Positions 39,029-44,794 of a stretch of 64,000 bases of DNA are shown one piece after another (position 1 is the stretch's first letter; every line of letters starts with the position of its first letter). The stretch lies in the NCBI GenBank assembly GCA_903938485.1, contig CAJADF010000040.1, positions 1 to 64,000 on the forward strand, read 5' to 3'. The position numbers and the translations under genes were made by a program. This DNA is from an uncultured Methylococcaceae bacterium (GTDB lineage Bacteria; Pseudomonadota; Gammaproteobacteria; Methylococcales; Methylomonadaceae). The notes beneath the pieces were generated by a model that did no database searches, was not told where the DNA came from, and saw only the letters and a list, made by a program, of their open reading frames with translations.

Positions 39029-39071
39029 ATCTAGTCACCTAAATATTTTGCAATTGAGAAGAATTAACCTA

Positions 39072-40259
39072 ATGAAATTGAGTTCCACAATAGTTTTTTG
39101 TTTGATCTTACTAGGCGTAAGTCAGGCTAACGCGGCAGTCTATAAATTGCCGGCAAAAAAAGGAGATAGGGTTGTTGCTCTGGTTCCAGAAGAAACGCTG
39201 ACCGTTAAGGCCGATCATGATCAAACCTTATTAGATATCGCTAGACGATTTAATCTGGGTCAAACAGAAATTGTTACTCTTAATCCTAAATTAGATCGTT
39301 GGTTGATTAAAACAGGTACCGAAATTCGTTTACCTAATAGACGCATTTTGCCTGATAGTCCCCATGATGGCATTACACTTAACATTGCTGAGTATCGTAT
39401 GTATTATTATCCAGCGAGTGCTCCGGGTATTGTTCGGTCTTATGCACATGGTGTGGGTCGTCAAGATTGGCAAACGCCATTGGGCAGAACGACTGTTGCT
39501 AAAAAAGTAAAAGATCCTGCTTGGCATCCACCTGAGTCTATTAGACGAGAACATGCGGCTAATGGCGATTTCTTACCTGAGATTGTGCCGCCCGGCATAC
39601 ATAATCCTTTAGGGGCTTATGCCTTATATTTAAACTTACCCGGTGATTATCGTATTCATGGGACTGATATCGATAAGATATTTGGTATTGGTATGCAAAT
39701 CACGCATGGTTGTGTCCGTATGTATCCTGAAGATATTGATGCTTTGTATCATTCAGCAGAAATTGGTACACCCGTTTATATCGTTAAACAACCGATTAAA
39801 GTGGGATGGCTAAATAATTCGCTTTATGTAGAAGCTCACCCTGATTTAGAAGGGGAAGAAAAAACGCAAGATCAACGTTTTGCGATAGCCTTAGCTTTAA
39901 TTCAAAAAATTAATGGCGGTGAAACACCTGAGTTTGATCAGGTAGCTTTAAATAAAGCTTTAGCAGATTTAGATGGTGTACCGGTAGAGATTTATGAAGG
40001 TGTTCCTCCTTTATATGTAGATCCAACCCCTGTGCCAGATCTTGCCAAAGGCAAAGTATCCAGTAGTAAAAAAGGCGCTAAAAAAGCGAATAAGTCTGCA
40101 AAAGCTGATACAGTAAAAACAGCCGCTAAATCTGCTAAAGTTACGCATGCCGCTGATAAAAAAGTTGCAGAAAAAGTAACTAAAGATAAGTCTACTAAAG
40201 AAAAAACCGTGATTAAAGCACAGAGCGGTACTAAAGGTGGTTATTATCACGGCGATTAA
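39072..40259 (+). CDS. L,D-transpeptidase (ErfK/YbiS type) with LysM-like domain and Lys/Ala tail
   Basis: An exported enzyme that crosslinks peptidoglycan or attaches lipoproteins. It has a signal peptide (FCLILLGVSQANAA), a LysM-like motif (VKADHDQTLLDIARRFNLGQTEIVTLNP), and a YkuD domain with YRIHGTD and the catalytic HGCVRMYPEDIDALY. The last 70 residues form a low-complexity, highly basic Lys/Ala/Ser tail, unusual for the family. The ATG at 39072 is chosen over the upstream TTG because it begins the signal peptide and has GAGAAG upstream. It follows thrC by about 43 bp. Confidence 0.92.
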   Translation: MKLSSTIVFCLILLGVSQANAAVYKLPAKKGDRVVALVPEETLTVKADHDQTLLDIARRFNLGQTEIVTLNPKLDRWLIKTGTEIRLPNRRILPDSPHDGITLNIAEYRMYYYPASAPGIVRSYAHGVGRQDWQTPLGRTTVAKKVKDPAWHPPESIRREHAANGDFLPEIVPPGIHNPLGAYALYLNLPGDYRIHGTDIDKIFGIGMQITHGCVRMYPEDIDALYHSAEIGTPVYIVKQPIKVGWLNNSLYVEAHPDLEGEEKTQDQRFAIALALIQKINGGETPEFDQVALNKALADLDGVPVEIYEGVPPLYVDPTPVPDLAKGKVSSSKKGAKKANKSAKADTVKTAAKSAKVTHAADKKVAEKVTKDKSTKEKTVIKAQSGTKGGYYHGD

Positions 40260-40307: not shown

Positions 40308-41681
40308 ATGAGTAAAAAAATAAAAATTGCCTATGTGTGCGACCAATGCGGTGCTGATTATCCGCGTTGGGGTGGGCAATGCACCAGTTGTGGTGAATGG
40401 AATACCATTAAAGAAGTACGCTTAGGATCGACTAGTTCAGAACGTAGTAGTCGTTCTGGTTATGCCGGTAGCCGGTCAGAAGTTAAACTTTTAGCCAATG
40501 TTAATTTAACGCAAGCTGAACGTATTTCTACAGGCATATCAGAATTTGATAGGGTTTTAGGCGGTGGCATAGTCTGTGGTAGTGTCGTCTTAATTGGTGG
40601 TGCGCCCGGAGCTGGTAAAAGTACCTTATTATTACAGGCCATCGCTAACATTGCAGACCGAGGTGTACAAGTTCTGTATGTTTCTGGCGAAGAATCCTTA
40701 CAACAAATAGCCGAACGCGCCTTCCGTTTAAAATTACCCGCCGAAAAAATCATGATGCTGATGGAAACATCCGTTCAACGCATTTGCGATGTCTTAGATG
40801 AAGTTAAGCCTCAAATATTAGTGATTGATTCTATCCAAGTTATGCACACCCAAGAGGCTGAGTCTGCGCCCGGTTCTGTGTCTCAAGTGCGAGAGTCTGC
40901 GAGTTATCTGACTCAATATGCTAAAAAACACCAGGTTTCAATTTTTATGGTCGGTCATGTGACTAAAGATCAATCTTTAGCCGGGCCTATGACCTTAAGC
41001 CATATTGTTGATACGCAAGTGATGCTAGGGTCTACTGATGATGCACGCTTTAGGGTTTTAAGAGCCGATAAAAATCGCTTTGGCAGTGTGGGTGAGTTAG
41101 GTTTTTTTGCTATGGATAGCACGGGATTAAAAGAAGTAAAGAACCCTTCTGCCATGTTTTTAAATAGAGCAGAAAAGCCTTCATCAGGGAGCGTGGTCAC
41201 CGTACTATGGGAAGGCACTAGGCCTTTATTAGTTGAGATTCAAGCCTTAGTCGTCGACTGCCAATACGGCAATCCTAGACGCTTAGCCGTGGGCTTTGAT
41301 CAAAATCGCTTGGCAATGTTGCTGGCAGTATTGCATCGACATGGCGGTGTCTTTACGGCTCAAGATGAAATATATGCCAATGTGGTGGGGGGCATAAAAG
41401 TCACTGAAACCAGTTCTGATTTAGCCATTGTAATAGGCATAGTCTCTAGCTTAAAAGATAGAGTTATACCGCATGATGCGTTCTTTTTTGGTGAGATTGG
41501 TTTAAGTGGCGAAATTAGACCGGTTGCTAATGGTCATGCACGTTTGAATGATGCTGCTAAACATGGCTTTAAAAAAGCCATTATCCCTAAAGCGAATGTA
41601 CCCAAAACCCCAATTAAAGGCTTGCAGATTTATGGGGTTGCTACTTTATCTGAAGCATTAACTATCTCGGCTGAATTATAA
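40308..41681 (+). CDS. radA: DNA repair protein RadA
   Basis: A RecA-like ATPase helping branch migration in recombinational repair. The order of motifs is: C4 zinc finger CDQCGADYPRWGGQCTSCGEW, Walker A GGAPGAGKST, Walker B ILVIDSIQ, the RadA-specific KNRFG (ADKNRFGSVGELGFF), and the Lon-like C-terminal domain (DLAIVIGIVSSL...GEIGLSGEIRPV). Its 457 residues are normal. Confidence 0.97.
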   Translation: MSKKIKIAYVCDQCGADYPRWGGQCTSCGEWNTIKEVRLGSTSSERSSRSGYAGSRSEVKLLANVNLTQAERISTGISEFDRVLGGGIVCGSVVLIGGAPGAGKSTLLLQAIANIADRGVQVLYVSGEESLQQIAERAFRLKLPAEKIMMLMETSVQRICDVLDEVKPQILVIDSIQVMHTQEAESAPGSVSQVRESASYLTQYAKKHQVSIFMVGHVTKDQSLAGPMTLSHIVDTQVMLGSTDDARFRVLRADKNRFGSVGELGFFAMDSTGLKEVKNPSAMFLNRAEKPSSGSVVTVLWEGTRPLLVEIQALVVDCQYGNPRRLAVGFDQNRLAMLLAVLHRHGGVFTAQDEIYANVVGGIKVTETSSDLAIVIGIVSSLKDRVIPHDAFFFGEIGLSGEIRPVANGHARLNDAAKHGFKKAIIPKANVPKTPIKGLQIYGVATLSEALTISAEL

Positions 41682-41752: not shown

Positions 41753-42643
41753 TTAAGAGGAAGCTTTTTCAGGATAAACGCTGTATTCAAATCCTAAGGT
41801 TTCTTCCCATTTATACAGCATAGCGATAGTCACAGAATGGGCTAAATCTAAAGCCGTAATACCAGATCCTACTTCAGCATTAGCCTCTTCAGATAAAATA
41901 TCCGCAGCAATTAACTTAGCACCTAGTTTGTGGGCATCAACGACTTTTTGGTGGCCATTTTTAATATAAATAAAACCGTTACACACAAAAACTTTAACCG
42001 CGTCATTTTCTGCCAAGGAATCGTCTTCAGCTAACTCTTTGATGGATTGGGTTGGTAACAATTTTTTGGGGGTGACCCAAAGTTGTGCGAATATGTGTGC
42101 TTTTAACCATAAATCAAAGCAATCTTTAATCTTTTGAGCAATCACTTCTGGCGTGGTAAAAGAGGTATCAATGACCAAATCGTAGTTGCTGTATTTTCTG
42201 AACTGGACATTGTAAAGATGATTAAAGCGCTGATCTTCTATACTCTGGCGTTTTAGATTGTTTTCTAGAGTTACTGCTAGGGATGGGTTATGTTCGTCCC
42301 CTCTAGCGGCGTTAAAGACTCTTTCTGCACCAACTACAGTATCTACTGCTAAAAACACTTTGAAGGCATTCGGTATAAAGTGCCAAGCTAAACGCGAATC
42401 TAAAATTAATTGCTCTTGAGTTTTGCCCAATTCAACCACATAAGCATCAATTTCATCATCAATACTACGATCAGTTTGAGATATTTTGTTCAACTCAAGC
42501 GTAGTGACACCGCGGCGCGTAGCAATTTCTCTTTGGATGGTGCCGGTGCCAATAATATCAAACTGCGTGAGATCTTTTAGTGCTTTGGCTACCGAGGATT
42601 TGCCACTGCCGATATCGCCAGACATTACAATAATATTCTTCAT
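41753..42643 (-). CDS. Cytidylate-kinase-like protein with C-terminal ParB/Srx-like segment
   Basis: The N-terminal 185 residues form a nucleoside-monophosphate-kinase-like P-loop protein. It has VMSGDIGSGKSSVAKAL (P-loop), LILDSRLAWHFIPNAFKVFLAVD (NMP-kinase core) and a LID-like RQSIEDQRFNHLY. The remaining 110 residues are not part of CMP kinase. WVTPKKLLPTQSIKELAED followed by IYIKNGHQKVVDAHKLGA resembles the start and the GHxR-type motif of ParB/sulfiredoxin-fold domains, some of which are free-serine kinases or nucleotide-binding switches. The two-domain reading is my inference. The gene faces radA convergently and is alone. Confidence 0.6.
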   Translation of the reverse strand: MKNIIVMSGDIGSGKSSVAKALKDLTQFDIIGTGTIQREIATRRGVTTLELNKISQTDRSIDDEIDAYVVELGKTQEQLILDSRLAWHFIPNAFKVFLAVDTVVGAERVFNAARGDEHNPSLAVTLENNLKRQSIEDQRFNHLYNVQFRKYSNYDLVIDTSFTTPEVIAQKIKDCFDLWLKAHIFAQLWVTPKKLLPTQSIKELAEDDSLAENDAVKVFVCNGFIYIKNGHQKVVDAHKLGAKLIAADILSEEANAEVGSGITALDLAHSVTIAMLYKWEETLGFEYSVYPEKASS

Positions 42644-42715: not shown

Positions 42716-43558
42716 CTACTCTGTAATTAAGGTTTTAATACGAAAATGTCCTGCACCCTCAATACCTAGCGTATTTGCTAAGTAAGGCAGAGTGTTTTGT
42801 AATTCGGCAGCTAATTTCCAGGGCGGATTAATAACAATCATACCGCTAGCTGTCATGCCATGCCCTGTGGTGTCAGCTTTTATGCCCAATTCATAAAGCT
42901 GTACATTTTTAAGCGGGCTGGCTTTAAGAGCATTTTCTAGTTGAATATTTCTGCTCCGATCAACGACGGGATACCACAACGCAAAAGTACCCTGAGCAAA
43001 GCGTTTATAAAACTTAAATAAAGACGCTACGACCTTATCGTAATCACTTTTAATCTCGTAAGACGGATCAATTAATACTAAGCCTCGATTAGGTTTCGGT
43101 GGTAATAGCCCAAGCGTGTTTTTTAAACCATCGGTGTGTTGAAGGGTAATGCGCTTATCTTTTTTGATGGCTTGCTTTAATAGATTAATTTCGGTGGGAT
43201 GCAGTTCATGCGCAAATAAATGATCTTGCTGACGAAGATAAAGCTGAATAATTAAGGGTGAACCAGGATAGATAGTTAGTTTATCCGTAGGATTAAAACT
43301 TTTAATGACCTTAACGTAATCTGCCACCGCATCTGGCAAATTATCTAACTCCCATAATGCGCCTATGCCATTATCAAATTCTTTATTTTTTTGCGCATAA
43401 TCACTATTTAATTGATAGCCACCCGCACCCGCGTGCGTATCAATACAACAAAAGGGTTTGTCTTTAGTGTTTAAGTGCTTAAGAATTTTAATTAAAACTA
43501 AATGTTTTAAAACATCGGCAAAATTGCCCGCATGAAAAGAGTGTCTGTAACTGAGCAT
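42716..43558 (-). CDS. rlmJ: 23S rRNA (adenine2030-N6)-methyltransferase RlmJ
   Basis: The N-terminus MLSYRHSFHAGNFADVLKHLVL is diagnostic of RlmJ. IDTHAGAGGY is the SAM loop and LVLIDPSYE is the catalytic DPSYE-type motif. It methylates A2030 of 23S rRNA. At 280 residues it equals the E. coli enzyme. It begins at the stop of the upstream RMD1-family gene, so the two are coupled. Confidence 0.95.
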   Translation of the reverse strand: MLSYRHSFHAGNFADVLKHLVLIKILKHLNTKDKPFCCIDTHAGAGGYQLNSDYAQKNKEFDNGIGALWELDNLPDAVADYVKVIKSFNPTDKLTIYPGSPLIIQLYLRQQDHLFAHELHPTEINLLKQAIKKDKRITLQHTDGLKNTLGLLPPKPNRGLVLIDPSYEIKSDYDKVVASLFKFYKRFAQGTFALWYPVVDRSRNIQLENALKASPLKNVQLYELGIKADTTGHGMTASGMIVINPPWKLAAELQNTLPYLANTLGIEGAGHFRIKTLITE

Positions 43559-44352
43559 TAAGAAAGTTTACTAGCGATGGTCATACCAATTTCGAAAGCG
43601 ATTAACCAGATGATGATCCATTCTAAAATAGTTGAGTGGCGATGTTTTTGTTCATCCGCTAACATTTCGAATAACTCATGAATCGTTTCAAGTTTTTTAG
43701 ATAACACTTGGGTGCGGGGCGCTATTTCTAAATATTTTGCTGTGATGGTATAAAAAGATTCATATTCTGGATATTCCCAAAAGAAATCCGGCGTATCTAA
43801 CAAATCGTAATTTAAAATGATATCGCTCTTCGTTAAGAACAATTGCCCGCGTATTTTGGCAATTTTATAGCGACTGAGTTTGATGCGACCATTTTCTGCT
43901 AATGATTTAGGAATATAGCTGGTGTTATTAATGGTAGTAATGGCATTGGTTTCAAATGAGGCCAATTTAATAGACTGCGCCATGCCTTGAGACAAGGCGA
44001 ATATTAAAATGGGATCAGACGATTCAATTTCAATATGATCTTCAATAATACGGGTAATAGGGCAGTTAAGTGCAAATGTAAAGAAATCTTCTTCTATTAT
44101 GGCTAATGGGAATTCTGCGTGTTCTAATAACAATTGATGTAATTTTGTTTGCGCTTCTTGGCTAACATTCCAGTGCACAACAGCGCCATAGGCAAATACC
44201 ACTGACCAAGAATTATCATCTTCTATTAATAACGCGCCTTTAATAATACGAATTAGCGTTGATTCAGAGAGTAGCGCCGCTAATTCGTTAATATCAAAAC
44301 GTAATGCCAGACAAAATGCGGCACATTTTTGGGTAGAGCTAGTTGATGACAT
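43558..44352 (-). CDS. RMD1/DUF155 family membrane-anchored protein
   Basis: A helical/beta domain (SIKLASFETNAITTIN, ENGRIKLSRYKIAKIRGQLFLTKSDIILNYDLLDTPDFFWEYPE) matches the DUF155 (RMD1/YagE) family. It ends with the family's C-terminal membrane helix (TILEWIIIWLIAFEIGMTIA). Eukaryotic relatives are mitochondrial inner-membrane proteins tied to ribosome tethering and translation; the bacterial role is unknown. The track ORF begins 22 codons earlier, overlapping the preceding gene. The ATG at 44352 gives 264 residues and is preferred, though its ribosome site is weak. Confidence 0.82.
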   Translation of the reverse strand: MSSTSSTQKCAAFCLALRFDINELAALLSESTLIRIIKGALLIEDDNSWSVVFAYGAVVHWNVSQEAQTKLHQLLLEHAEFPLAIIEEDFFTFALNCPITRIIEDHIEIESSDPILIFALSQGMAQSIKLASFETNAITTINNTSYIPKSLAENGRIKLSRYKIAKIRGQLFLTKSDIILNYDLLDTPDFFWEYPEYESFYTITAKYLEIAPRTQVLSKKLETIHELFEMLADEQKHRHSTILEWIIIWLIAFEIGMTIASKLS

Positions 44353-44374
44353 AGGGGTCAAATTAAATCCATGA

Positions 44375-44794
44375 TTATTTATCAACGATATTAAGTAACC
44401 AGCCACTTTCTGCTTCACATTCTGAATACTTGGCTTTAACTTTTATATTGATACGCGCATAAGTGTCATGTAGAGATGCCGGCAGTTTACTCTTAATAAT
44501 GTAATAAGGATCTTTAAATTCAGCCTCAAACTCTACCGGTATATTTTTAACCGTGATAGAAATTAAATCTGCATTAAGGATGTTGTGGGCAATAAATGAA
44601 AACTCAGCCCCAGGAATAACGGTAGTTAAATGTGCTGGGATAAATTTACTTAATTGTGGTTTACAAACACCCATCCCGCTGCTGCTGCCTTTGGGGCCAC
44701 CCATATGACCACTGTGATGTTCTGCTGCTTGAGTTGATAGATTAACTGATAACGACAAAATCGAAGATAAAGCGAGTAATGTTATTTTTTTCAT
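44375..44794 (-). CDS. Small exported protein of unknown function
   Basis: A signal peptide (LALSSILSLSVNLSTQAAE) precedes a short His/Gly/Ser-rich segment (HHSGHMGGPKGSSSGMG) and a beta-rich domain with two cysteines (Cys of MGVCKPQ and of YSECEAE). The His-rich start hints at metal binding. FSFIAHNILNADLISITVKNIPVEFE reads like an Ig-type beta-sandwich. I do not recognise the family. It lies 22 bp upstream of the RMD1 gene and may share its transcript. Confidence 0.6.
   Translation of the reverse strand: MKKITLLALSSILSLSVNLSTQAAEHHSGHMGGPKGSSSGMGVCKPQLSKFIPAHLTTVIPGAEFSFIAHNILNADLISITVKNIPVEFEAEFKDPYYIIKSKLPASLHDTYARINIKVKAKYSECEAESGWLLNIVDK

Follow-up and report, generated by a model that had tools for sequence, protein, structure and literature searches.

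The window, a stretch of 64,000 nucleotides from an uncultured Methylococcaceae bacterium, carries a gene whose product joins a nucleoside monophosphate (NMP) kinase domain of the CMP-kinase type to a C-terminal domain with the predicted fold of ParB and sulfiredoxin (ParB/Srx). On balance, we consider the kinase to be the core function of this protein and the ParB/Srx-fold domain to be an accessory part, probably regulatory or structural. Both domain families are known and their combination appears to be undescribed; as an earlier note on this DNA had supposed, no paper describing the pairing was found in the open-access literature searched.

The gene and its kinase domain

The gene, its kinase domain and the neighbouring genes are arranged as follows.

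41753..42643, minus strand: gene for the CMP-kinase-like and ParB/Srx-fold protein; whole ORF, ATG start, 296 aa, intact
42098..42643, minus strand: NMP (CMP)-kinase-like domain, residues 1-182 (Cytidylate_kin2, TIGR02173, Foldseek)
42596..42619, minus strand: P-loop GDIGSGKS, residues 9-16, with the Gly-x-Gly-Lys-Ser core
42716-43558, minus strand: rlmJ, upstream of the kinase gene
43558-44418, minus strand: DUF155 gene, upstream of the kinase gene beyond rlmJ
40308-41681, strand opposite to the kinase gene: radA
39048-40259, strand opposite to the kinase gene: L,D-transpeptidase gene

The extent of the ORF agrees exactly with that given in the earlier note, to which the strand is added here, and both sequence stretches quoted there, VTPKKLLPT...IKELAE and NGHQKVVDAHKLGAKLIAADIL, are present in the 296-aa protein. 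Intact homologues with 65-92% identity were detected in most searched genomes of the Methylobacter-like genus, and the gene order DUF155-rlmJ-kinase-(convergent)-radA is kept in the nearest genomes of the genus. Values of dN/dS lie at 0.01-0.08 in the kinase part and at 0.07-0.35 in the C-terminal one. Because of the intact homologues, the conserved gene order and these dN/dS values, the ORF is a real gene with both domains under purifying selection.

Two observations concern the surroundings of the gene. The ORF at 44375-44794, adjacent to the gene for DUF155, encodes 139 aa with a signal-like sequence at the N-terminus; its product matches no Pfam or NCBIfam family, yet is conserved at this place across the genus with about 60-90% identity. 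In one genome (G013), a broken second copy of the kinase gene (L070:3286-3585, contig C115) follows rlmJ, the usual site in the genus, and an intact long-form copy is located elsewhere, which points to relocation or duplication.

The N-terminal part is cytidylate-kinase-like, as proposed before. Cytidylate_kin2 (PF13189) matches residues 4-161 (6e-10; 40 bits, with the gathering score at 28) and TIGR02173, the archaeal-type (d)CMP kinase, matches residues 4-174 with an E-value of 1.2e-25; all 30 members of our sequence set A1 are matched by TIGR02173 as well. A search for a single family spanning the full length revealed none that covers it. With the full-length model (pLDDT 88.3, pTM 0.87), Foldseek placed the putative kinases 3hdt and 3fdi on top, followed by shikimate and CMP kinases including 2cmk. 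Since the window protein, with 90.4 bits, stays below the curated equivalog cut-off of TIGR02173 (102.1), which the Parabacteroides relative described below passes with 106.6 bits, its specificity for CMP is putative.

The Gly-x-Gly-Lys-Ser core of the P-loop is retained family-wide with minor changes. The P-loop residue K15 as well as R38, D82-S-R84, R132, R139 and D155 are retained in relatives across three phyla, and most of them are also found in a haloarchaeal Cmk. Conserved among these are K15, R38, R84, R132 and R139, which we take, from general knowledge of NMP kinases, to be the P-loop Lys and the substrate and lid arginines. A separate canonical Cmk (PF02224; G000:C113) is encoded in the same genome. 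From these findings we infer that the window protein is an active NMP kinase other than this housekeeping enzyme.

The predicted fold of the C-terminal domain

The C-terminal domain and its motif residues are located at the following positions.

41756..42085, minus strand: ParB/Srx-fold domain, residues 187-296 (AlphaFold2, Foldseek, HMM)
42047..42055, minus strand: PTQ, residues 197-199, end of the first conserved ParB/Srx stretch (alignment, tally)
41945..41956, minus strand: G230-H-Q-K233, equivalent of the P-motif (canonical GxxR), Arg replaced by Lys
41804..41809, minus strand: W279-E280 in the C-terminal helix, a family-specific invariant (33 of 33 long forms)

According to structural models, the C-terminal domain has the ParB/Srx fold. 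The earlier assignment of this part to the fold was thereby borne out: structure prediction and fold search returned ParB/Srx and no unrelated fold, and a family HMM gave matches to ParB-like domains. AlphaFold2, run for residues 185-296 on 24 sequences, reached a pLDDT of 87.1 and a pTM of 0.82. ParB, Noc, sulfiredoxin, SerK and SbnI dominate the Foldseek matches in the PDB, and the best 50 listed also include PadC, KorB and the Pyrococcus protein 1vk1. Probabilities are mostly 0.9-1.0, with E-values of 3.5e-3 at best and TM-scores of about 0.4-0.5. The top match is Atu1540, which is uncharacterised going by its title.

Sequence searches of Pfam, NCBIfam and the PDB with the C-terminal domain delivered nothing useful, and the ParB-type Pfam families including ParB_N (PF02195) gave no match up to an E-value of 10 for the window domain and 26 relatives. 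The search with PF08857 gave no match either, and its positive control likewise gave none. A profile comparison with canonical ParB_N resulted in a probability of 29% and a score of 25, compared to 20.6 at most in 40 column-shuffled controls, which is supportive but weak evidence for the fold. When the family HMM of the domain was run on 301 genomes from the order, it additionally picked up two RHS proteins and a phage-like polyvalent protein, each at the C-terminus. These proteins for their part show matches to ParB_N or ParBc_2 that range from weak to significant (2.9e-7 with ParB_N for one of them). An HMM built solely from the Methylobacter-type sequences matches two RHS ParB-like domains with E-values of 1e-4 to 4e-4 and 18-20 bits; 3000 shuffled controls reached 10.7 bits at most against this HMM. 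The similarity of the C-terminal domain to the RHS ParB-like domains is greater than chance.

Distribution and variation of the C-terminal domain

In the order, the methanotrophs with the long form belong to the genus of the window, to a small number of further genera in the family and to one other family. As the samples of the phylum (399 genomes) and of the class (369 genomes) yielded just the window's own gene, the distribution of the family looks patchy. Phyla beyond that of the window were reached solely via a plasmid collection, in which a search for the same architecture detected full-length two-domain relatives with 31-35% identity on plasmids of Rhodococcus and Parabacteroides (WP_195207923.1 in the latter). 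These are annotated only as (d)CMP kinase, cytidylate kinase or cytidylate kinase family protein. Searches of viral contigs and phage records detected no relatives.

A maximum-likelihood tree was built for the kinase part; five proteins of only 181-185 aa (short forms) group there in one supported subclade nested among the long forms of the genus. In two genomes (L030 in G033 and L068 in G017), the DNA 3' of the short gene still encodes pieces of the C-terminal helices out of frame, as exemplified by 'ELTTNDIAHGISNKRLQDWEQALDFKYKHY' in L030. The tree position and these remnants show that this subclade lost the C-terminal domain and retained the kinase. Other short forms (L058, L064, L065) branch deeper in the kinase tree; a further short homologue (L057) was left out, since its contig ends there.

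According to a 2025 survey, ParB-CTPase-fold proteins require the Arg of the GxxR P-motif to bind NTP, and its replacement by Ala abolished NTP binding in the ParB-fold proteins tested (PMC12704722). The corresponding motif of the window protein is GHQK and thus without this Arg. The 33 long forms are mutually related sequences, so that residue counts among them are not independent; at the Arg position they carry R (10), Q (8), K (5), L (5), E (2), G (2) or H (1); 31 of them retain GH, and none of the 33 lacks WE. Arg is also gone in Rhodococcus, where the motif reads GHDA. By its sequence, the C-terminus of the Parabacteroides relative (L-x-PTE ... NGYYFIWDGHKRCSAA ... YVPVQVI, with complete DGHKR) is the most canonical ParB/Srx-like version seen. 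It follows from the Arg counts together with the dN/dS values that the domain is constrained, though not for the canonical nucleotide grip.

This pattern bears on what the domain might do. A purely structural, ligand-free domain, used for dimerisation or as a lid, would be in line with the conservation of GH, WE and F-x-Y whereas catalytic positions vary, and with the subclade that does without the domain. Nevertheless, we regard it as unlikely, because the domain is retained from Bacteroidota to Methylococcales and the retained Gly-His of the phosphate loop suggests a kept pocket. The earlier note had considered a two-step nucleotide function conceivable. Such a protein of two enzymes, in which a nucleotide is produced by the kinase and the second domain then hydrolyses NTP or phosphorylates a small molecule, for example serine, finds some backing in the SerK and SbnI kinases and the CTPases of the fold family, in the near-complete motif set of the Parabacteroides member (PTE and DGHKR) and in those 10 Methylococcales-type long forms in which Arg is present. 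However, the idea did not hold up well and appears quite improbable: Arg is absent in the other 23 long forms including the window protein (Lys233) and in Rhodococcus, its replacement by Ala abolishes NTP binding in the tested proteins, one subclade lost the domain yet keeps the kinase, and the dN of the domain is about five times that of the kinase domain.

The neighbourhoods outside the order differ from each other. The Rhodococcus plasmid copies (L108, L109, L110) lie beside genes for Rv2632c-like dsRBD-fold, universal stress and Clp N-domain proteins, with Hsp20 and LigD close to one of them (L108), a gene group that is stress- or dormancy-like. The Parabacteroides copy belongs to a run (L107:8612-13619) with genes for a P-loop ATP-binding protein, a radical SAM protein, a medium-chain dehydrogenase and a hypoxanthine phosphoribosyltransferase (hpt), adjoining polysaccharide genes; this run might represent a nucleotide-linked pathway. 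A role of the protein in a modified-nucleotide or stress pathway instead of CMP recycling, as these plasmid neighbours and the additional canonical Cmk could indicate, is very unlikely, since the neighbourhoods are lineage-specific, with housekeeping genes (rlmJ, radA) in Methylobacter, and no common pathway emerged from them.

Proposed function and comparison with known systems

In the preferred reading, with the kinase as core and the C-terminal domain as accessory, the window protein would be a (d)NMP kinase that belongs to the archaeal-type branch of CMP kinases and is present alongside the housekeeping Cmk. With ATP as phosphate donor, it would phosphorylate CMP/dCMP or a related nucleoside monophosphate, perhaps a modified one or one from salvage. 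The ParB/Srx domain would pack on the kinase, and the pTM of the full model suggests that this packing is fixed. By domain logic, the accessory domain would derive from an NTP-binding ancestor and would most likely be ligand-sensing or regulatory; in most Methylobacter versions, in which Arg is lost, it is probably structural or binds its ligand in another way. Because the nucleotide-gripping Arg is often lost, a tail that regulates or supports the kinase is more likely than a second enzyme. A more specific version, in which the domain binds the end product, e.g. CTP, and switches the attached enzyme as a CTP- or NTP-responsive kinase, is a rather doubtful one. If true, it would be a self-regulated nucleotide kinase, with a ParB-type switch acting on metabolism and not on DNA.

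The CTP switches of the ParB type were discovered recently, and the 2025 survey asks about other roles of the fold. The partner domains that it lists, HTH, HNH, methyltransferase, CBS and others, refer to proteins detected with PF02195, and the word 'cytidylate' is absent from its main text (PMC12704722). Since PF02195 fails to detect the window domain, the family may have escaped this survey. The natural variants with the P-motif Arg kept, with the Arg lost and with the domain absent make the function of the fold directly testable. Moreover, names like '(d)CMP kinase' or 'cytidylate kinase family protein' can mask an unannotated second domain.

The kinase part shares with the (d)CMP kinases of TIGR02173 and PF13189 the P-loop, the TG-x-I-x-R segment, (D/E)SR-(L/M)-A, R...R-(Y/F)...Y and YDLV-x-(D/N)T, with an HMM match over the full domain; the window protein differs by its additional C-terminal domain of about 110 aa. 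With the housekeeping Cmk of the same genome it has the NMP kinase superfamily in common, but Cmk is of another family, has its own gene and consists of a single domain. ParB, Noc, sulfiredoxin, SerK and SbnI (PF02195, PF08857) share the predicted fold of the C-terminal domain, and the GH loop preceding a helix and L-x-P-T in the first segment are also common to them. In contrast to these proteins, the window domain lacks an HTH, is placed C-terminal to a P-loop kinase and belongs to a family in which the Arg of GxxR is not conserved. SerK is a free serine kinase with ADP/serine chemistry and, going by PDB titles, E30 as catalytic Glu. The nearest HMM matches outside the family are the ParB-like ends of the RHS proteins (L101, L102) and of the phage-like polyvalent protein (L103). 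They differ from the window family in that they retain DGHHR and in their fusion partners, which are RHS-repeat or phage-like modules. In the two methanotroph RHS-repeat proteins, these C-terminal ends with their intact DGHHR are possibly the tips of polymorphic toxins.
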